Below, one piece after another: positions 18,675-53,226 of a stretch of DNA of 64,000 nucleotides. Where the stretch lies: the NCBI RefSeq assembly GCF_001428895.1, contig NZ_LMJA01000013.1:28649-92648 (forward strand), in the 5' to 3' direction. This DNA is from Mycobacterium sp. Root265 (GTDB lineage: Bacteria > Actinomycetota > Actinomycetes > Mycobacteriales > Mycobacteriaceae). The translations under genes and the position numbers were made by a program. Below the pieces are notes generated by a model. That model searched no databases, had not been told where the DNA came from, and was given only the letters and a program-made list of their open reading frames with translations. Within the stretch, counting starts at the first letter, position 1, and each line of letters starts with the position of its first letter.

Positions 18675-18688
18675 TAGAACGTGTTCTA
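18675..18688. promoter_or_regulatory. Second KstR operator upstream of mce4
   Basis: TAGAACGTGTTCTA has perfect TAGAAC/GTTCTA half-sites. It lies 88 bp from the first box and 37 bp beyond the end of hsd4A, within the 260-bp intergenic region before yrbE4A. Confidence 0.85.
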
Positions 18689-30472: not shown

Positions 30473-31590
30473 CTTCCGGCGATGCCGTCGAGACGCTTGG
30501 TGGCTTCCTCGAAACCGCTGACCAGTTCGCCGATGATGTCGGCGACGGGGCGGATCTCGTTCATCCGGCCCACGATCTGACCGACCGGCATCGCGACGGC
30601 GGTCGGATCCGAGGACTCGTTCATCCGCTGATGGGCCTCGCTGACGAGGATGTTCTGCAGCGGCATGGGCAGCGGGTCGGGTGCGTTCTCGGCATCCCAC
30701 GCGTCGGTCCAGCGACTCTTGAGCAGCCGGGCCGGCTTGCCGGTGTAGATCTTGCGGCGCACGGTGTCACTGGAGGTGGCGTCGAGCATGGCCTGCTGGA
30801 TGGTCGACACCCCGGAGGCCTGCCGCACACCGAGGTCGTACTCGGCAGAGGTCAGGAAGGCCGAGCCCATCCAGACGCCTTGCGCACCGAGGGCCAGCGC
30901 CGCGGCGACCTGGCGTCCGGTCCCGATACCGCCGGCTGCGAGCACCGGGGCCTTACCGTCGAGTGCGTCGACGATCTCGGGCCACAGGACCACCGATCCG
31001 ATCTCACCGGTGTGCCCACCGGCCTCATGGCCCTGGGCGACGACGATGTCGACACCGTTCTCGGCATGGCGCAGTGCGTGTTTGGCGCTGCCGGCCAGCG
31101 CGGCCACCGGCACACCGGCGGCGTGGGCCTGGTCGATGACATCCTTGGGCGGCGAGCCGAGTGCATTGGCGATCAGCTTGATCGGATGCTTGAGTGCCAC
31201 ATCGACGTGGCTGCGGGCCACCGAGTGCAGCCAGCCCAGCACGCCCTCGGACTTCTCCTCGTCCTCGGGCAGCGGGGGCACCCCGAGATCGGCGAGCGTC
31301 TTGGCCACGAAATCGCGGTGCGTCTCCGGGATCAGCTTGTTGATGTCGACGCTGGTGCCTTCGGTGGGGATCTTGGCGGGCATCACGATGTCGACGCCGT
31401 AGGGCTTGCCGTCGGTGTTGGCGTCCATCCACTGCAGGACGTTCTCCAGGTCGTCGGCATCGTTGAACCGCACGCAGCCCAGCACGCCGAGCCCGCCGGC
31501 CTTGCTGACCGCGGCGGCCACCTTCTCCGACGGGGTGAAGACGAAGATCGGGTATTCGATCCCGAACCGTTCACACAGTTCAGTTCTCAT
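30469..31590 (-). CDS. Nitronate monooxygenase / 2-nitropropane dioxygenase-family FMN protein
   Basis: 373 residues from ATG 31590, overlapping the fadD19 stop (ATGA), so cotranscribed with fadD19 under KstR. FMN TIM barrel: FGIEYPIFVFTP, AAAVSKAGGLGVLG, IVVAQGHEAGGHTGEIGSVVLWPEI with the conserved His, and AAGGIGTGRQVAAALALGAQGVWMGSAFL phosphate-binding loop. Family members oxidise nitronates, but steroid-cluster members such as IpdC act as reductases or oxidases on steroid ring intermediates, so a role on a steroid CoA ester or ring substrate is possible. Confidence 0.85.
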   Translation of the reverse strand: MRTELCERFGIEYPIFVFTPSEKVAAAVSKAGGLGVLGCVRFNDADDLENVLQWMDANTDGKPYGVDIVMPAKIPTEGTSVDINKLIPETHRDFVAKTLADLGVPPLPEDEEKSEGVLGWLHSVARSHVDVALKHPIKLIANALGSPPKDVIDQAHAAGVPVAALAGSAKHALRHAENGVDIVVAQGHEAGGHTGEIGSVVLWPEIVDALDGKAPVLAAGGIGTGRQVAAALALGAQGVWMGSAFLTSAEYDLGVRQASGVSTIQQAMLDATSSDTVRRKIYTGKPARLLKSRWTDAWDAENAPDPLPMPLQNILVSEAHQRMNESSDPTAVAMPVGQIVGRMNEIRPVADIIGELVSGFEEATKRLDGIAGS

Positions 31591-33251
31591 GATGCGGCTC
31601 CTGCGTGCTTGGCGTGGATATCGTCGGCGGGTCGTTCCTCGGTGGTGTCCTTGGCCCAGCGGTAATCCGGCTTGCCCGCGGGCGAGCGCTTCACCTCGTC
31701 GACCAGCCAAAGGCTGCGCGGCACCTTGTATCCCGCGATCTCGGTACGGACGTGCGCGTCCAGATCGGCCAGCGTCGGACGGGTCCCCTCGCGAGGCTGC
31801 ACCACGGCGGCGACGTGCTGGCCGAAGCGTTCGTCGGGCACGCCGACGACGAGTGCATCGAACACATCGGGATGTCCCTTGAGCGCCGCCTCGACCTCTT
31901 CGGGGTAGATCTTCTCGCCGCCGCTGTTGATCGACACCGAGCCGCGGCCCAGCATCGTCACGCTGCCGTCGGCTTCGACCTCTGCGTAATCACCCGGAAT
32001 CGCATACCGCACACCGTTGTACGTCCGGAACGTCTCGGCGGTCTTCTTCTCGTCCTTGAAGTAGCCGACCGGGATGTGACCGCATTTGGCGATGATGCCG
32101 CGCACACCCGAACCGGGTACGACCTCGTTACCGTCCTCGTCGAGCACCTTGGTGTTCTTGTCGATGGTGACCCGCGGACCGCCGGTGTGCGACTGGCCCT
32201 TTGCCACGATGCTCGTGCCACCGAATCCGGTTTCCGAGGAACCGATCGAGTCGGTGATGACCCGGTTGGGCAGCAGCTCGAGGAACTTCTCCTTGAGGCT
32301 GGTGGAGAACAGCGCCGCGGTGCTGGCCAACAGGAAGAGCGAGGACAGGTCATAAGGTTCTGATCCTGGGGTGCCCTCGTCCTGGTGTGCCAGCAGGGCG
32401 TCGAGCAGCGGGCGCGCCATCGCGTCGCCGGTGAAGAAGAGCAGATTGACCTTGTGGTCGTGGATCAGACGCCACACCTGATCGGCGTCGAATTCCGGTG
32501 TCAGCACCACGGTCTGACCGGAGAACAGGGCCATCCAGGTGGCCGACTGGGTGGCGCCGTGGATCATCGGGGGGATGGGCAGCCGGATCATCGGCGCGTT
32601 GGCAGCGGCCTGCTTGGACAGGTCGTATTCGTCGGCGATGGGCTCCCCGGTGGCGAAGTCGGTGCCGCCGAACAACACCCGGTAGATGTCCTCGTGGCGC
32701 CACATCACACCCTTGGGGAAACCGGTGGTGCCGCCGGTGTAGAGCAGGTAGATGTCGTCGGCGCTGCGCGGGCCGAAATCGCGCTCCGGCGAGCCCTGGG
32801 CGAGGGCGGCCTCGAACTCGACGCCGCCGTACCGCTGGTAGTCGTCGTCGGATCCGTCCTCGACGACCAGGACGGTCTTCACGTTCGGCGTCTCGGGCAG
32901 CACGTTGGCGACCCGGTCGGCGTAGCGGCGCTCGTGGATCAGCGCGACCATGTCGGAGTTGTCGAAGAGGTATTTCAGCTCGCCCTCGACATAACGGAAG
33001 TTGACGTTGACCAGGATCGCGCCGGCCTTGACGATGCCGAGCATCCCGATCACGATCTCGATCCGGTTGCGGCAGTACAGACCGACCTTGTCGTCCTTCT
33101 TGACACCCTGGTCCTGGAGGTAGTGGGCCAGACGATTGGCCTTGTCCTCGAGCTGGGCGTAGGTCAGTTGTTCGTCACCACATATGAGGGCGACGCGGTC
33201 CGGGACGGCGTCGATTGAGTGCTCGGCAAGATCGGCGATGTTCAGGGCCAT
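31587..33251 (-). CDS. fadD19: Steroid-26-oyl-CoA ligase FadD19
   Basis: 554 residues. Adenylating enzyme with YTGGTTGFPKGVMW (about 172-185), GSSETGFGG (about 341-349), SINSGGEKIYPEEVEAAL and the C-terminal KRSPAGKPDYRWAK lysine loop. FadD19 activates C26 sterol acids such as 3-oxocholestenoate, and in rhodococci it is needed for C24-branched sterol side chains. A KstR box ends 11 bp upstream of the ATG. It is divergent from echA19, as in M. tuberculosis, and is coupled to the downstream nitronate monooxygenase-like gene. Confidence 0.94.
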   Translation of the reverse strand: MALNIADLAEHSIDAVPDRVALICGDEQLTYAQLEDKANRLAHYLQDQGVKKDDKVGLYCRNRIEIVIGMLGIVKAGAILVNVNFRYVEGELKYLFDNSDMVALIHERRYADRVANVLPETPNVKTVLVVEDGSDDDYQRYGGVEFEAALAQGSPERDFGPRSADDIYLLYTGGTTGFPKGVMWRHEDIYRVLFGGTDFATGEPIADEYDLSKQAAANAPMIRLPIPPMIHGATQSATWMALFSGQTVVLTPEFDADQVWRLIHDHKVNLLFFTGDAMARPLLDALLAHQDEGTPGSEPYDLSSLFLLASTAALFSTSLKEKFLELLPNRVITDSIGSSETGFGGTSIVAKGQSHTGGPRVTIDKNTKVLDEDGNEVVPGSGVRGIIAKCGHIPVGYFKDEKKTAETFRTYNGVRYAIPGDYAEVEADGSVTMLGRGSVSINSGGEKIYPEEVEAALKGHPDVFDALVVGVPDERFGQHVAAVVQPREGTRPTLADLDAHVRTEIAGYKVPRSLWLVDEVKRSPAGKPDYRWAKDTTEERPADDIHAKHAGAAS

Positions 33252-33275: not shown

Positions 33276-33338
33276 TTTTTGTTCAAGTAGCGCAGTGTGA
33301 CAAGTCCGAGTTGTCATCGAGCAGGAAGGCGGACACCC

Positions 33339-34139
33339 GTGAGCGAGGCCGACGGCACACCCGATGCCCTCATCGAGCAGCGCGGACACACGCTGATCGT
33401 GACGCTGAACCGGCCGGAGGCGCGCAATGCGCTTTCCACCGAGATGCTCTCGATAATGGTCGAGGCCTGGGACCGCGTGGACAGCGATCCGGACATCCGG
33501 ACCTGCATCCTGACCGGCGCAGGCGGCTACTTCTGCGCGGGCATGGACCTCAAGGGCGCCACCAAGAAACCACCGGGCGATTCGTTCAAGGACGGCAGCT
33601 ACGACCCGTCACGAATCGACGGTCTGCTGAAGGGGCGTCGTCTCACCAAGCCGCTCATTGCGGCGGTCGAGGGGCCGGCGATCGCGGGCGGCACCGAGAT
33701 CCTGCAGGGCACCGATATCCGGGTCGCCGGCGAGAGCGCCAAGTTCGGCATCTCCGAGGCCAAGTGGAGCCTGTACCCGATGGGCGGCTCGGCGGTGCGC
33801 CTGGTTCGCCAGATTCCGTACACCATCGCCTGCGACATGCTGCTGACCGGCCGCCACATCACCGCGGCCCAGGCCCTGGAGTACGGGCTGATCGGTCACG
33901 TGGTGCCCGATGGCACGGCGCTGGAGAAGGCCCTGGAGATCGCCGAGATCATCAACAACAACGGCCCGCTGGCCGTGCAGGCGATCCTCAAGACCATCCG
34001 CGACACCGAGGGCATGCACGAGCTCGACGCCTTCAAGCCCGATACCGCCAACGGCATCCCGGTGTTCCTCAGCGATGACGCCAAGGAAGGTCCGCGGGCG
34101 TTCGCCGAGAAGCGGCCGCCCAACTTCCAGATGAAGTAG
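33339..34139 (+). CDS. echA19: Enoyl-CoA hydratase EchA19
   Basis: 266 residues from GTG, with AGGAAGG about 10 bases upstream. Crotonase fold: [28 protein letters not shown] (oxyanion-hole region, about 65-77), [39 protein letters not shown] and [22 protein letters not shown]. EchA19 of M. tuberculosis hydrates the C22 double bond of 3-oxo-chol-4,22-dien-24-oyl-CoA in side-chain beta-oxidation and is slowed by succinylation (published). Divergent from fadD19 and sharing its KstR box. Confidence 0.92.
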
Positions 34140-38861: not shown

Positions 38862-39893
38862 TTACACCAGCGCGGCGAGATCTTTGATCTGCTCGCTCGA
38901 TCGGGCGCCGACGACCATCATGGTCACGCCCGCGGCCTCCCAGGCGACGATCTGTTCCTTGACGTAGTCGAGGTTGCCGACGATCGCCGAGTCGTCCACG
39001 AGCTCATCGGGGATCACCTTGGCCGCCTCGTCCTTGCGGTCGGTACGGAACAGTTTGGTGACGTCGTCGACGACCTCGGAGTACCCCATCCGGCGATACA
39101 CGTCGGCGTGGAAGTTGGTGTCCTCGGCGCCCATCCCGCCCATGTAGAGCGCCAGGTGGGGCTTCATCAGTTCCATGATGGCCGGCCGGTCATCGGTGAC
39201 GACGACCTGTGCCGTCGCGCAGATCTCGAAGGTTTCCCGGGTACGCCGCGCGCCGGGGCGGGCGAAACCCTCATCGAGCCATTCGTTGTACATGCCCGCG
39301 ATGCGCGGTGAGTAGAAGATGGGCAGCCAACCGTCGGCGACCTCGGCGGCCAGAGCCACGTTCTTGGGCCCCTCGGCGCCGAGCATCACCGGGATGTCGG
39401 CGCGCAACGGGTGGGTGATCGGCTTGAGGTTCTTCCCGAGCCCGGTGGTGCCCTCGCCGGTCAGCGGCAGCGGGTAGTGCGGGCCGTCGCTGCGCACCGG
39501 GGCCTCGCGGGCCCAGACCTGGCGCAGAATGTCGATGTACTCGCGGGTGCGGGCCAGCGGCTTGGGGAACTTGGCGCCGTACCAGCCCTCGACCACCTGC
39601 GGCCCGGAGACGCCGAGGCCGACGATGTGCCGCCCGCCGGAGAGATGATCGAGCGTCAGCGCGGCCATGGCGAGCGCGGTAGGGGTGCGGGCCGAGAGCT
39701 GCAGCACCGAGGTGCCCAGCCGCATGCGGGTGGTCTCGCGGCCCCACCAGGCCAGCGGGGTGTAGGCATCCGAGCCCCAGGCCTCCGCGGTGAAGACGGT
39801 GTCGAAGCCCTCGGCTTCGGCGGTGGCGACCAGTTCGGCGTGGTCGGTCGGTGGCTTGGCGCCCCAGTATCCGAGCTGAAGACCCAACTTCAT
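38862..39893 (-). CDS. LLM-class F420-dependent oxidoreductase (Rv3520c-like)
   Basis: 343 residues. Luciferase-like TIM barrel: MKLGLQLGYWGAKPPTDHAELVATAEAEGFDTVFTAEAWGSDAYTPLAWW and LTLDHLSGGRHIVGLGVSGPQVVEGWYG are the signature of mycobacterial F420-dependent enzymes close to methylenetetrahydromethanopterin reductase. Its length and position next to the KstR box match Rv3520c. A coenzyme F420-dependent step on a steroid intermediate is the natural inference, but the substrate is not known. Divergent from the DUF35 gene. Confidence 0.87.
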   Translation of the reverse strand: MKLGLQLGYWGAKPPTDHAELVATAEAEGFDTVFTAEAWGSDAYTPLAWWGRETTRMRLGTSVLQLSARTPTALAMAALTLDHLSGGRHIVGLGVSGPQVVEGWYGAKFPKPLARTREYIDILRQVWAREAPVRSDGPHYPLPLTGEGTTGLGKNLKPITHPLRADIPVMLGAEGPKNVALAAEVADGWLPIFYSPRIAGMYNEWLDEGFARPGARRTRETFEICATAQVVVTDDRPAIMELMKPHLALYMGGMGAEDTNFHADVYRRMGYSEVVDDVTKLFRTDRKDEAAKVIPDELVDDSAIVGNLDYVKEQIVAWEAAGVTMMVVGARSSEQIKDLAALV

Positions 39894-39929: not shown

Positions 39930-39943
39930 TAGAACCTGTTCTA
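39930..39943. promoter_or_regulatory. KstR operator between the LLM oxidoreductase and DUF35 genes
   Basis: TAGAACCTGTTCTA, with perfect half-sites, 10 bp before the DUF35 GTG and 37 bp before the opposite ATG. Confidence 0.87.
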
Positions 39944-39952
39944 CTCGATGCC

Positions 39953-40954
39953 GTGACCACAGGCCAAAGCAGCCCGGTGCAGATCGACGAGCATGAGCGG
40001 CCCCTCTCGGCGCCGCTGAGACTCTCATTCGACTACACCCGTTCAGTCGGACCGCTCCTATCTCAGTTCTTCACCGCACTGCGTGAACGACGCATCGTCG
40101 GCGTGCGCGGTTCGGACGGCCGGGTGCACGTACCACCCGCTGAGTATGACCCGGTCACCTACGAAGCCCTGACCGAGGTCGTGCCCGTCAGCGCCGTCGG
40201 CACGGTGCAGTCCTGGACCTGGCAGCCGGCGCCGCTGGAGGGCCAGCCGCTGGACCGGCCGTTCGCCTGGGCGCTCATCAAACTCGACGGCGCAGACACC
40301 CCCCTGCTGCACGCGGTGGACGCCCCGGAGGGGTCCATAAAGACCGGTGACCGGGTGCACGCGCACTGGATCGACGAGCCGGTCGGTGCGATCACCGATA
40401 TCGCCTGGTTCGTCCCCGGAGAGGACTCGGAACCAGAGGGCCAGCCCGATGACCGCGATCCGGTCACCGTGCAGGTGAGCCCCAGCTTCATCGAGATCCA
40501 GCACACCGCGTCGCTGCCCGAGACCACCTTCCTCAAGGCACTCGAGGAGGGCAAGCTGCTCGGCGGCCGGAGCCGGAGCGGGCGCGACGGCAAGCCCGGC
40601 AAGGTCTACTTCCCGCCCAAGGAAGCCGATCCCGCAACCGGTTTGGCGCTCGATGAGTTCCTCGAGCTGCCCGACGTGGGCACGGTCACCACGTTCGCGA
40701 TCATCAACATCCCGTTCCCCGGGCAGCGGATCAAACCGCCCTATGTCGCGGCCTATGTGTTGCTCGACGGTGCCGATATCCCGTTCCTGCACCTGGTCGT
40801 CGAGATCGATCCGGCCGATGTGCGGATGGGTATGCGCGTGCAGGCGGTGTGGAAGCCCCGCGAGGAGTGGGGCCTTGGCATCGACAACATCGACTATTTC
40901 AAGCCCAACGGCGAACCCGATGCCGACTACGACACCTACAAGCACCACCTGTAA
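39953..40954 (+). CDS. Tandem DUF35 (OB-fold) protein, Rv3521-like
   Basis: 333 residues from GTG 39953; later starts such as the GTG at 39977 are possible, since the family member in M. tuberculosis is shorter. Two DUF35 repeats are visible: RIVGVRGSDGRVHVPPAEYDP...VGTVQSWTW...ALIKLDGADTPLLH (about 48-130) and LLGGRSRSGRDGKPGKVYFPPKEADP...VGTVTTFAIINIPF...AYVLLDGADIPFLH (about 203-285). The Zn-ribbon cysteines normal for DUF35 are missing from both; the whole protein has no cysteine. DUF35 proteins act as partners of thiolase-fold enzymes (as in Ltp2-ChsH2), so it probably pairs with Ltp4 and/or Ltp3 encoded next. Confidence 0.87.
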   Translation: MTTGQSSPVQIDEHERPLSAPLRLSFDYTRSVGPLLSQFFTALRERRIVGVRGSDGRVHVPPAEYDPVTYEALTEVVPVSAVGTVQSWTWQPAPLEGQPLDRPFAWALIKLDGADTPLLHAVDAPEGSIKTGDRVHAHWIDEPVGAITDIAWFVPGEDSEPEGQPDDRDPVTVQVSPSFIEIQHTASLPETTFLKALEEGKLLGGRSRSGRDGKPGKVYFPPKEADPATGLALDEFLELPDVGTVTTFAIINIPFPGQRIKPPYVAAYVLLDGADIPFLHLVVEIDPADVRMGMRVQAVWKPREEWGLGIDNIDYFKPNGEPDADYDTYKHHL

Positions 40955-40967
40955 AGGGCCCGAACTG

Positions 40968-42023
40968 ATGACCGAAATCGCAGTGGTGGGCTTCGCACAC
41001 GCGCCCCACGTCCGCCGCACCGACGGCACCACCAACGGCGTCGAGATGCTGATGCCGTGTTTTCACCAGCTCTACGAAGAACTCGGCCTCAAGCAGACCG
41101 ATATCGGGTTCTGGTGCTCGGGATCCTCGGATTACCTTGCCGGTCGCGCTTTCTCGTTCATCTCGGCCATCGACTCGATCGGCGCGATCCCGCCGATCAA
41201 CGAGTCGCATGTCGAGATGGACGCCGCGTGGGCGCTCTATGAGGCCTACATCAAGCTGCTCACCGGCCAGGTCGAGACCGCGCTGGTGTACGGATTCGGC
41301 AAGTCCTCGGCAGGCACTCTGCGCCGCGTGCTCGCCCTGCAGACCGACCCCTACACCGTTGCGCCGCTGTGGCCGGACTCGGTATCGCTGGCCGGCCTGC
41401 AGGCTCGCGCCGGGCTGGACGCCGGCACGTGGACCGCCGAGCAGATGGCCCAGGTGGCACTGGACTCCTATGCCGCCGCAGGCCGCACCGACCGGGAGGA
41501 GGTCACCGGCGACATCGACGAGCTGCTGTCCCGGCCGTTCTTCGCCGACCCGTTGCGCCGCCACGACATCGCCCCGATCACCGATGGTGCGTCCGCGATC
41601 GTGCTGGCTTCCGGAGACAAGGCCCGCGAACTCCGGGAGAACCCGGCCTGGATCACGGGTATCGAGCATCGCATCGAGACACCCATCCTGGGCGCCCGTG
41701 ACCTGACCTCCTCACCGTCGACGGCGGCCTCGGCCAAGGCGGCCACCGGGGGCGACGCCGGTTCGATCGACATCGCCGAGATCTACGCGCCGTTCACCCA
41801 CCAGCAGCTGATTCTCACCGAGGCGATCGGGCTCGGGTCGCAGACGACGGTGAACCCGTCCGGTGGCGCGCTGGCCGCCAACCCGATGTTCTCCGCAGGC
41901 TTGGAGCGCATCGGCTTCGCCGCTCAGCACATCTTCGACGGCTCCGCGCAGCGGGTGCTGGCCCATGCGACCAGCGGCCCTGCGCTGCAACAGAATCTCG
42001 TCGCCGTGCTGGAAGGGAAGTAG
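40968..42023 (+). CDS. ltp4: Thiolase-fold Ltp4, probable sterol side-chain aldolase subunit
   Basis: 351 residues, 13 bp after the DUF35 gene. SCP2-thiolase fold, but the catalytic set is altered: the segment that should hold the nucleophilic Cys reads NESHVEMDAAWALYEAY (about 77-93), and the C-terminal GHPxGxxG is replaced by ANPMFSAG (about 304-311). Such cysteine-less thiolases act as retro-aldolases in steroid side-chain cleavage (Ltp2). In rhodococci ltp3 and ltp4 are required to degrade C24-branched sterol side chains, which fits. Likely complex partners are the DUF35 protein and Ltp3. Confidence 0.88.
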   Translation: MTEIAVVGFAHAPHVRRTDGTTNGVEMLMPCFHQLYEELGLKQTDIGFWCSGSSDYLAGRAFSFISAIDSIGAIPPINESHVEMDAAWALYEAYIKLLTGQVETALVYGFGKSSAGTLRRVLALQTDPYTVAPLWPDSVSLAGLQARAGLDAGTWTAEQMAQVALDSYAAAGRTDREEVTGDIDELLSRPFFADPLRRHDIAPITDGASAIVLASGDKARELRENPAWITGIEHRIETPILGARDLTSSPSTAASAKAATGGDAGSIDIAEIYAPFTHQQLILTEAIGLGSQTTVNPSGGALAANPMFSAGLERIGFAAQHIFDGSAQRVLAHATSGPALQQNLVAVLEGK

Positions 42024-42027
42024 CGAA

Positions 42028-43218
42028 GTGGCTGCATCAAAGAATTTGGCCGCGGTGCTGGGAACCGGGCAGACCAAGTACGTCGCCAAGCGCCATGACG
42101 TGTCGATGAACGGCCTCGTGCGCGAGGCGATCGACCGAGCACTCGCCGATGCCGGGTCGACGTTCGACGACATCGACGCCGTGGTGGTCGGTAAGGCGCC
42201 CGACTTCTTCGAGGGCGTCATGATGCCCGAGCTGTTCATGGCCGACGCCACCGGTGCGACGAACAAGCCGCTGATCCGGGTGCACACCGCCGGTTCGGTG
42301 GGTGGCTCGACCGCCATCGTCGCGGCCAGCCTGGTGCAATCGGGCAAGTACAAGCGCGTGCTGACGATGGCCTGGGAGAAGCAGTCGGAATCGAATGCCA
42401 TGTGGGCGTTGAGCATTCCGGTGCCATTCACCAAACCGGTGGGCGCAGGCGCGGGTGGGTACTTCGCTCCGCACATCCGCGCGTACATCCGGCGCTCGGG
42501 CGCCCCTGATCACATCGGCGCCATCGTGGCGGTCAAGGACCGGCTCAACGGCGCGAAGAACCCGCTGGCTCATCTGCACCAGCCGGACATCACCCTGGAG
42601 AAGGTGATGGCCTCCCCCATGCTGTGGGATCCGATCCGCTATGACGAGACCTGCCCGTCGTCCGACGGTGCGGCGGCCATGGTGATCGGCAACGAGGAAG
42701 CGGCGGAAGCGCATCTGGCGAACGGAAATCCCGTGGCGTGGATCCACGCCACGGCGTTGCGCACCGAGCCGCTGGCCTACGCCGGTCGCGATCAGGTGAA
42801 CCCGCAGGCCAGCCGCGATGCCGCGGCCGCACTGTGGCGTGACGCCGGGATCACCTCCCCCATCGACGAGATCGACGCCGCCGAGGTCTACGTTCCGTTC
42901 TCCTGGTATGAACCGATGTGGCTGGAGAGCCTCGGTTTCGCCGCCGAGGGCGAGGGCTGGAAGCTCACCGAGGCCGGCGAGACCGCGATCGGCGGGCGTA
43001 TCCCGTTCAACGCCTCCGGGGGTGTGCTGTCCTCCAACCCGATCGGCGCGTCCGGCATGATCCGGTTCGCCGAATCGGCCATCCAGGTGATGGGCAAGGC
43101 CGGCGACCACCAGGTGCCCGGCGCACGCAAGGCCCTTGGTCACGCCTATGGCGGTGGCGCACAGTACTACTCGATGTGGGTCGTCTCCAGCGACAAGCCG
43201 GCGCCCACACCGGCATGA
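42028..43218 (+). CDS. ltp3: Thiolase-fold Ltp3, probable sterol side-chain aldolase subunit
   Basis: 396 residues from GTG, 4 bp after ltp4, with GGAAGG upstream. SCP2-thiolase fold: IRVHTAGSVGGSTAIVAASLVQSGKYKRVLTMAWEK (about 83-118) places Ser or Gly where thiolases have the nucleophilic Cys. The GHP motif has become SSNPIGASG (about 334-342), and the third catalytic segment reads GHAYGGGAQYY without Cys. The loss of all thiolase catalytic residues argues for an aldolase or a structural partner of Ltp4. The SnoaL-like gene that follows overlaps as ATGA. Confidence 0.9.
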   Translation: MAASKNLAAVLGTGQTKYVAKRHDVSMNGLVREAIDRALADAGSTFDDIDAVVVGKAPDFFEGVMMPELFMADATGATNKPLIRVHTAGSVGGSTAIVAASLVQSGKYKRVLTMAWEKQSESNAMWALSIPVPFTKPVGAGAGGYFAPHIRAYIRRSGAPDHIGAIVAVKDRLNGAKNPLAHLHQPDITLEKVMASPMLWDPIRYDETCPSSDGAAAMVIGNEEAAEAHLANGNPVAWIHATALRTEPLAYAGRDQVNPQASRDAAAALWRDAGITSPIDEIDAAEVYVPFSWYEPMWLESLGFAAEGEGWKLTEAGETAIGGRIPFNASGGVLSSNPIGASGMIRFAESAIQVMGKAGDHQVPGARKALGHAYGGGAQYYSMWVVSSDKPAPTPA

Positions 43219-43619
43219 CGGAGCGCCCGGTCACCCTGGCGGGCCGGCGGTCGCGGGAAGCGGCCGTCGCCCGCGACAAACAGACCTGGCTCGACCTGTT
43301 CGCCGATGACGCGATCATCGAGGACCCGATCGGGCCGTCGCATTTCGACCCGGAGGGCAAAGGCCATCGCGGTAAGGACGCCATCGCGGCGTTCTTCGAT
43401 ATGGCGATTGCGCCCAGCGAGCTTGAGTTCCACTTCGAGAAGTCCTACGTCTGCGGCGACGAGGAAGCCAACACGGGCCACATCGTGATCGTCGCGAGCG
43501 GCTACCGGGTCATCGCCGAGGGCGTGTTCACCTACCGGGTGAACGCCGACGGCAAGATCGCCGCACTGCGCGCGTACTGGGAGCTGGACAAGGCGGCAGC
43601 CAGCGCGCAGCCGGTGTAG
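43215..43619 (+). CDS. SnoaL / NTF2-like (ketosteroid-isomerase fold) protein
   Basis: 134 residues, start overlapping the ltp3 stop (ATGA). NTF2-like cone fold: REAAVARDKQTWLDLFADDAIIEDPIGPSHFDPEGKGHRGKDAIAAFFDMAI with typical DAxIEDP, then three strands (VIVASGYRVIAEGVFTYRVNADGKIAALRAYWEL). The catalytic Asp/Tyr pair of ketosteroid isomerase cannot be assigned with confidence. Cotranscription with ltp4-ltp3 suggests a steroid or acyl-CoA substrate, for example an isomerase or hydratase step, but none is demonstrated. Confidence 0.8.
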   Translation: MTERPVTLAGRRSREAAVARDKQTWLDLFADDAIIEDPIGPSHFDPEGKGHRGKDAIAAFFDMAIAPSELEFHFEKSYVCGDEEANTGHIVIVASGYRVIAEGVFTYRVNADGKIAALRAYWELDKAAASAQPV

Positions 43620-53210: not shown

Positions 53211-53226
53211 CTAGAACGCGTTCTAG
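53211..53226. promoter_or_regulatory. KstR operator upstream of the Rv3531c-like operon
   Basis: CTAGAACGCGTTCTAG, a perfect 16-bp palindrome containing the TAGAAC/GTTCTA half-sites. It is 59 bp before the Rv3531c-like ATG and 31 bp before the divergent iclR ATG. Confidence 0.9.

Follow-up and report, generated by a model that had tools for sequence, protein, structure and literature searches.

Gene content of the locus

The window analysed here is a stretch of 64,000 nucleotides from Mycobacterium sp. Root265 (contig NZ_LMJA01000013.1, positions 28,649 to 92,648); unless a contig is named, coordinates are those of the window. It contains three consecutive genes, hereafter the trio, coding for a tandem DUF35 protein (DUF35x2) and two diverged thiolase-fold proteins (Ltp4 and Ltp3). 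They are preceded by a KstR operator and followed by a gene for a SnoaL-like protein. On the basis of gene linkage, active-site residues and distribution among genomes, we propose that the products of the trio probably act together as a retro-aldolase on C24-branched sterol side chains. The features of the locus are as follows.

39930..39943, no strand assigned: KstR operator, palindrome TAGAAC-N2-GTTCTA, 0 mismatches
39953..40954, + strand: DUF35x2, tandem DUF35 protein (OB_ChsH2_C twice), GTG start, 333 amino acids (aa), 0 Cys; N-half about residues 19-155, C-half about 173-318 (AlphaFold model and Pfam)
40968..42023, + strand: Ltp4, diverged thiolase fold, 351 aa; nucleophile site occupied by Glu83, ANP for GHP, base at the YDHF site unconserved
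42028..43218, + strand: Ltp3, thiolase fold, 396 aa, GTG start; nucleophile site occupied by Gly89, YVPF motif with Tyr288, SNP for GHP
43215..43619, + strand: SnoaL/NTF2-like protein, 134 aa, ATGA overlap with ltp3; optional neighbour

The original prediction, made from the sequence of the window, had placed four open reading frames and a KstR box here, and both the frames and the box were found at these coordinates. The motif scan identified the perfect palindrome TAGAACCTGTTCTA at 39930-39943, 9 bp 5' of the DUF35x2 GTG; the motif is the published one, as given in the accessible part of PMC1995591. With up to three mismatches allowed, the window holds 22 KstR-like sites, compared with an expectation of 4.4 from shuffled sequence. 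Two further perfect palindromes lie at 18675-18688 and 53212-53225. A sigma-70 scan returned 0 promoter-like sites. Both thiolase-fold proteins pass NCBIfam cut-offs: Ltp3 that of NF006180 (754.7 bits versus 514) and Ltp4 that of NF005924 (649.3 versus 419).

Conservation of the trio

The trio was searched for in 296 genomes drawn over the class and representing 114 genera, with thresholds of E<=1e-20 for Ltp4, E<=1e-90 for Ltp3 and E<=1e-12 for DUF35x2. Ltp4 is present in 78 genomes belonging to 25 genera, and Ltp3 in exactly the same 78. DUF35x2 is matched in all of these and, by a weak half-match, in one other. Gene order was compared in 120 loci. The close set comprises the best 80 among at least 570 relatives, and its Ltp4 proteins all share 80-96% identity with that of the window; the wider set consists of 40 loci, drawn from 38 of the 78 genomes that have the trio. 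The order DUF35-Ltp4-Ltp3 on one strand, with all three genes, is found in every one of the 120. DUF35x2, Ltp4 and Ltp3 thus constitute a real unit. Counts by alignment column omit six Ltp3 rows shorter than 370 aa and 11 DUF35 rows shorter than 270 aa, which are split genes, single-half matches or cut ends; 30 loci of the Ltp4 search over the 296 genomes (L013-L042) received no separate analysis. One contig (L109), filed as a metagenome-assembled genome of Bifidobacterium breve, carries an Ltp4 80% identical to that of the window and is possibly mis-binned.

In a tree that also includes 12 further members of the thiolase superfamily from the window's genome, Ltp3 and Ltp4 lie together on one side of a branch (support 95/90; midpoint root, long stems), which fits a duplicated pair. 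The genome of the window has 11 DUF35 loci including the trio, each with an adjoining thiolase-fold gene (contigs C3, C11, C12, C13, C25, C27, C28 and C29). Second sets were observed elsewhere. Loci L140 (genome G107, family f1) and L157 (G031) have a second, diverged DUF35/Ltp4/Ltp3 set, in which Ltp4 is 43-45% identical to that of the window and the C-half DUF35 is a short gene with the zinc ribbon retained. Genome G082 has a second copy of the trio region (C1:5086332-5092987) near the opposite end of the contig, where Ltp4 and DUF35x2 are matched in separate pieces only.

Active sites of the two thiolase-fold proteins

Ltp3 and Ltp4 were aligned at their active sites with the same 12 proteins. 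As had been predicted, neither has the nucleophilic Cys or the GHP His by which SCP2-type thiolases are recognized: Gly89 and SNP stand there in Ltp3, Glu83 and ANP in Ltp4. The description of the two proteins as cysteine-less is incorrect as worded, given Cys209 in Ltp3 and Cys31 and Cys50 in Ltp4. Cys209, within a CPSSDG stretch, is one of seven Ltp3 residues that are invariant in all 114 aligned sequences, together with Gly89, His182, Tyr288, Pro290, Asn337 and Pro338. Tyr288 and Pro290 belong to the motif YVPF, which corresponds to YDHF in the steroid aldolase Ltp2 and YDCY in the aldolase Sal.

In Ltp4, Glu83 and its neighbours His81 and Asp85 are each invariant (120/120). The base site is variable: the 80 close loci have Tyr (55), His (18) or Cys (7), and the 40 wider loci have His (30), Ser (6) or Gln (4). 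Judged from these residues, the two subunits are not equivalent, because Ltp3 alone retains the Tyr base throughout its aligned sequences. The placement of Glu83 at the Cys position follows the active-site alignment and the strand (79-82) and helix (86-98) of the Ltp4 model; a global profile alignment shifts it by one residue (against Ser90).

Among the 12 other proteins, the nucleophile site is Cys in seven (L164, L166, L167, L168, L171, L172 and L174), Gly in three (L163, L165 and L170), Thr in one (L169) and a gap in one (L175). The Gly is common to Ltp3, to the YDHF protein L170 and to L163, a relative of Sal (450 bits to 9MYR). Three thiolases adjoining DUF35 genes in the window's genome (L167, L168 and L171) have QDT for HDC and GEP for GHP.

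The trio had been likened to the Ltp2-ChsH2(DUF35) steroid aldolase (6OK1), and this likeness is partial. It extends to a thiolase fold encoded alongside a DUF35 protein, to the replacement of the nucleophilic Cys by Gly in Ltp3 (Glu83 takes that place in Ltp4) and to the Tyr base of YDHF, matched by Tyr288 of Ltp3 and by a Tyr in only 55 of the 120 Ltp4 sequences. It does not extend to the YDHF His, which is Pro290 in Ltp3 (114/114), to the acid Tyr344, where Ltp3 has Asn337-Pro338 around a one-residue gap, or to the Cys4 zinc ribbon of the DUF35 domain. Ltp2-ChsH2 has one type of thiolase subunit, and its DUF35 domain, with a Cys4 zinc site, is part of a hydratase protein, whereas the trio has two paralogues and, in the window, a Cys-free double DUF35 whose C-half keeps the ribbon in other families.

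The Sal-Shy(DUF35) aldolase of Comamonas testosteroni (9MYR) resembles the trio as a thiolase-fold aldolase with DUF35, with its Tyr base at the position seen in Ltp3, and shares the theme of an altered zinc finger; Shy retains zinc as Cys3His1. It differs in having a single subunit type and an acid Cys304 within YDCY, where all aligned Ltp3 have Pro290. The acid residues of Ltp2 and Sal are those given in the accessible passages of PMC12329534 and in the 6OK1 sequence.

The tandem DUF35 protein and its zinc ribbon

Single-chain AlphaFold models were made of Ltp4 and DUF35x2; an identity filter left 52 and 68 rows, which were reduced manually to the 43 and 39 used for the models. For the DUF35 protein of the window, the prediction of two domains and no cysteine was borne out: Pfam OB_ChsH2_C matches two stretches, and the model (mean pLDDT 92.8) has an identical series of helices and strands twice, at 19-155 and 173-318. 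The predicted loss of the zinc ribbon accordingly holds for this protein but not for the family, since 26 of the 27 C-halves outside the window's family keep three to five ribbon cysteines; a zinc-free DUF35 as a family trait is therefore ruled out.

No ribbon Cys is present in the C-half of any of the 78 close-set rows. The ribbon was read singly in 32 rows, one from the window and 31 from the 40 wider loci. None of them has a ribbon Cys pair in the N-half, where five rows of family f19 have a stray single Cys. Among the 31 wider rows, 14 have a C-half with four or five ribbon Cys (6/6 of f20, 6/8 of f18, 1/8 of f19 and 1/1 of f15), 12 have three (4/4 of f28, 7/8 of f19 and 1/8 of f18) and five have none (4/4 of f1, and L132 of f18). 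L132 thus has a C-half ribbon without Cys though it lies outside the window's family. The zinc-free state of the C-half is, as far as the sequences indicate, partly lineage-specific. The ribbon Cys of the C-half are graded across families, and we therefore read the protein of the window as the end state of a stepwise ribbon loss.

The two halves match as separate pieces in the genomes of families f13, f15 and f37, with the exception of G150. In locus L137, the split DUF35 consists of a 146-aa protein without a zinc-ribbon hit and a 168-aa protein with one.

A putative asymmetric retro-aldolase

We consider it probable that DUF35x2, Ltp4 and Ltp3 are three subunits of an asymmetric retro-aldolase for C24-branched sterol side chains, with Ltp3 as the catalytic subunit. 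A multi-subunit aldolase is best supported because the trio is conserved, Ltp3 and Ltp4 have an identical distribution, Ltp3 has an aldolase-like Gly and Tyr, and DUF35-bearing thiolase complexes are among the closest solved folds. From the original proposal of a multi-subunit aldolase, the two thiolase-fold subunits and the DUF35 scaffold survive; the SnoaL-like protein, which adjoins ltp3 in 16 of 120 loci, and the equivalence of the subunits, given a Tyr base in Ltp3 only, do not. The top fold match of Ltp4 is 6ET9, one of the DUF35-bearing thiolase/acyltransferase complexes, in which DUF35 is a staple of thiolase-fold assembly; these differ from the trio in that their chemistry, by their names and by passages of PMC12329534, is that of thiolases or acyltransferases and not of retro-aldolases. 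In the fold lists (VIA-align), a missing match is no evidence of absence.

From the observed linkage and distribution and from the model folds of Ltp4 and DUF35x2, we infer a complex and its stoichiometry: Ltp3 and Ltp4, as old paralogues, would form a thiolase-type heterodimer, and the two DUF35 domains, fused here, would each hold one thiolase-fold subunit and so bridge the unlike partners. The substrate in this strain would be prepared by FadD19, making the CoA ester, and by an enoyl-CoA hydratase such as EchA19, adding water to it. A retro-aldol step would be needed at the branched side chain because a tertiary beta-alcohol cannot be oxidized to a ketone. The substrate logic would resemble that of Ltp2, with a tertiary beta-hydroxy acyl-CoA bearing an alpha-methyl group, and cleavage between the hydroxyl and the alpha carbon would locally be Ltp2's reaction at C17. 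By carbon count, acetyl versus propionyl would fit loss of the C28 branch; if a 24-hydroxy-26-oyl-CoA were cut directly at C24-C25, propionyl-CoA would result in both cases.

The catalytic roles suggested by the residues are as follows. Gly89 of Ltp3 would open the former nucleophile site and Tyr288 would act as the base on the tertiary beta-hydroxyl of the CoA ester; the Calpha-Cbeta bond would break and acyl-CoA be released, as in Ltp2. The proton donor would have to be a third solution, with His182, Asn337 or water as candidates, because Pro290 and Asn337-Pro338 occupy the sites of the His or Cys and the Tyr or Gln of Ltp2 and Sal. Ltp4, with its invariant His81, Glu83 and Asp85 at the nucleophile elbow, would be a non-equivalent partner, serving as such, as a builder of the pocket or in a second chemistry.

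Published data are in part favourable. The Ltp3 and Ltp4 of Rhodococcus rhodochrous DSM 43269 (Wilbrink 2012), which have the same gene names, are essential for C24-branched side chains according to the accessible passages, and a later review, in the part available (PMC6678751, citing Wilbrink 2012), states that Ltp3-Ltp4 is a heteromeric aldol-lyase; no DUF35 subunit is named in the citing passages. In M. smegmatis, the available text of PMC6273163 reports that FadD19 is required for beta-sitosterol and dispensable for cholesterol, that EchA19 loss slows sitosterol use and, by citation, that Ltp3 and Ltp4 are needed in the same sitosterol-specific way. Results from M. neoaurum WIII weigh against our proposal: in the accessible part of PMC10398937, strains deleted for fadA5, ltp2, ltp3, ltp4 or atf2 still give 4-HBC from phytosterols, and the deletion of atf1 alone stopped its formation. 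This argues against strict essentiality of ltp3 or ltp4 there, because 4-HBC can be made from a branched sterol only once the C24 part has been removed.

Associated genes and distribution beyond KshA

The trio lies in a neighbourhood of Mce-family genes, an acyl-CoA dehydrogenase pair, an AMP-binding ligase, a FadD19-type ligase, an EchA19-type enoyl-CoA hydratase, a cytochrome P450 and a KshA-type oxygenase. From the gene names and synteny with M. tuberculosis, we take these surroundings to be the mycobacterial cholesterol locus and, by synteny, DUF35x2 to be presumably the orthologue of Rv3521. Three of the neighbouring genes are referred to here.

38862-39893, - strand: divergent oxidoreductase gene, on the other flank of the KstR operator
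31587..33251, - strand: FadD19-type acyl-CoA synthetase (NF005863); in other families, too, a relative is found next to the trio
33297..34139, + strand: EchA19-type enoyl-CoA hydratase; in other families, too, a relative is found next to the trio

KshA (threshold E<=1e-80) was found in 37 of the 296 genomes, all of them among the 78 with the trio. The other 41 trio genomes have no KshA match at this threshold, ruling out that the trio is limited to KshA genomes. The neighbours were surveyed in 22 trio genomes, hand-picked for spread over families f13, f15, f18, f19 and f20, 19 of which are without KshA. The best FadD19 match of the genome lies on the trio contig within about 7 kb in 16 of the 22 and the second best in three; the matches are away from the trio in the remaining three (G100, G132 and G242, all of one genus). 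For EchA19, the match at the trio is the best in 17, the second best in one (G276) and a weaker one in another (G242), and none was found in three (G100, G132 and G150). The NCBIfam model of the window's FadD19 also accepts four FadD19-like neighbours, and two EchA19-like ones pass PRK07799, below the EchA19 cut-off. The trio is thus often accompanied by genes for CoA activation and hydration, including where KshA is undetected.

Five f13/f15 loci also carry ChsE4/ChsE5-like dehydrogenases; a P450 was identified in L137 and a short-chain dehydrogenase/reductase in L162. These five (L135, L137, L151 and L162 of f15, and L136 of f13) have a compact set of genes for DUF35, a short Ltp4 (about 300 aa), Ltp3, ChsE4/ChsE5-like and FadD19-like proteins, in genomes without a KshA match.

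The trio could accordingly act as a retro-aldolase on beta-branched acyl-CoAs in general, such as those of terpenoid or other isoprenoid acids, with C24-branched sterols as substrates only in sterol degraders. We regard this as possible, though not the likelier case; the complex and the mechanism proposed above fit it as well. It is favoured by the 41 trio genomes without a KshA match, by the 19 selected KshA-less genomes, of which 16 have the best or second-best FadD19 and 14 the best EchA19 at the trio, and by the Streptomyces clavuligerus plasmid pF1D10B, a named case of the trio with its module. However, a missing KshA match is compatible with attack on the side chain alone or with a diverged KshA, the FadD19 relatives suggest a sterol-like acid, and a KstR box precedes the trio in the window.

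Alternative arrangements

A bolder version of the proposed complex, which we find rather unlikely, is an asymmetric two-site enzyme on a double-DUF35 platform: Ltp3 would perform the retro-aldol step with the third acid, and Ltp4 a second chemistry through Glu83, His81 and Asp85, serving branched acids well beyond sterols. The second chemistry may, for example, act on the extra carboxylate of a carboxylated branch.

It is also unlikely that Ltp3 and Ltp4 are independent aldolases, each a homodimer with one DUF35 half, which work on two different steps or substrates and are only co-transcribed. Such an arrangement would give a use to the strictly conserved Glu83, His81 and Asp85 (120/120), unneeded in a passive partner, and agrees with the DUF35 halves that lie apart or in two genes in several f13, f15 and f37 genomes (such as L137); a table in the accessible part of PMC7807495 also sets ltp3 and ltp4 against two conversions. 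Yet Ltp3 and Ltp4 are never found apart in the 296 genomes, the halves are fused in most loci read, pointing to one particle, and the aldolase base site is unconserved in Ltp4.

The SnoaL-like protein had been predicted to be a coupled member of the unit, and its gene does overlap ltp3 (ATGA) in the window. Over the 120 loci, it is directly 3' of ltp3 in 16, elsewhere in the locus in 37, cut off in nine and missing from 58 in which 3 kb or more of sequence was available, which rules it out as a core part. It lies about 0.9-1.0 kb beyond ltp3 in 33 more of the 80 close loci and directly adjoins ltp3 in 0 of the 40 wider loci. Another gene intervenes in five inspected loci (L045, L059, L077, L116 and L141); that of L059 is luciferase-like, and the window has no such gene. 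The nearest solved relatives are Rv0760c, a putative steroid isomerase, entries named OHP9 and the steroid delta-isomerase 5Z3R. A role as fourth subunit is therefore very improbable, its position in the 16 loci and in the 33 with a short gap notwithstanding.

It is equally improbable that Ltp3 and Ltp4 are non-catalytic lipid-transfer or scaffold proteins, as the old name and the NF005924 annotation of Ltp4 ('lipid-transfer protein') imply and as the loss of Cys and GHP His in both and the retained 4-HBC of the M. neoaurum single knockouts (available part of PMC10398937) would allow, since the active-site positions of Ltp3 are invariant in 114 sequences and Sal and Ltp2, also without the thiolase Cys, are proven aldolases in the accessible passages of PMC12329534.

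Significance

The Ltp3-Ltp4 aldol-lyase is already known; the present analysis adds the probable DUF35 subunit, the active-site differences and the recurring FadD19/EchA19 module. A DUF35 protein as a subunit of Ltp3-Ltp4 was not found in the open literature, outside which most subscription journals lie; the one paper found there that mentions both ltp3 and DUF35 deals with them separately. Now that a probable third subunit (DUF35x2), a putative catalytic subunit (Ltp3) and a candidate base (Tyr288) can be named, the proposal is directly testable by in vitro reconstitution. The lineage-wise loss of the zinc ribbon, together with the change from Cys to Glu in Ltp4, presents a thiolase scaffold in the course of being rebuilt.

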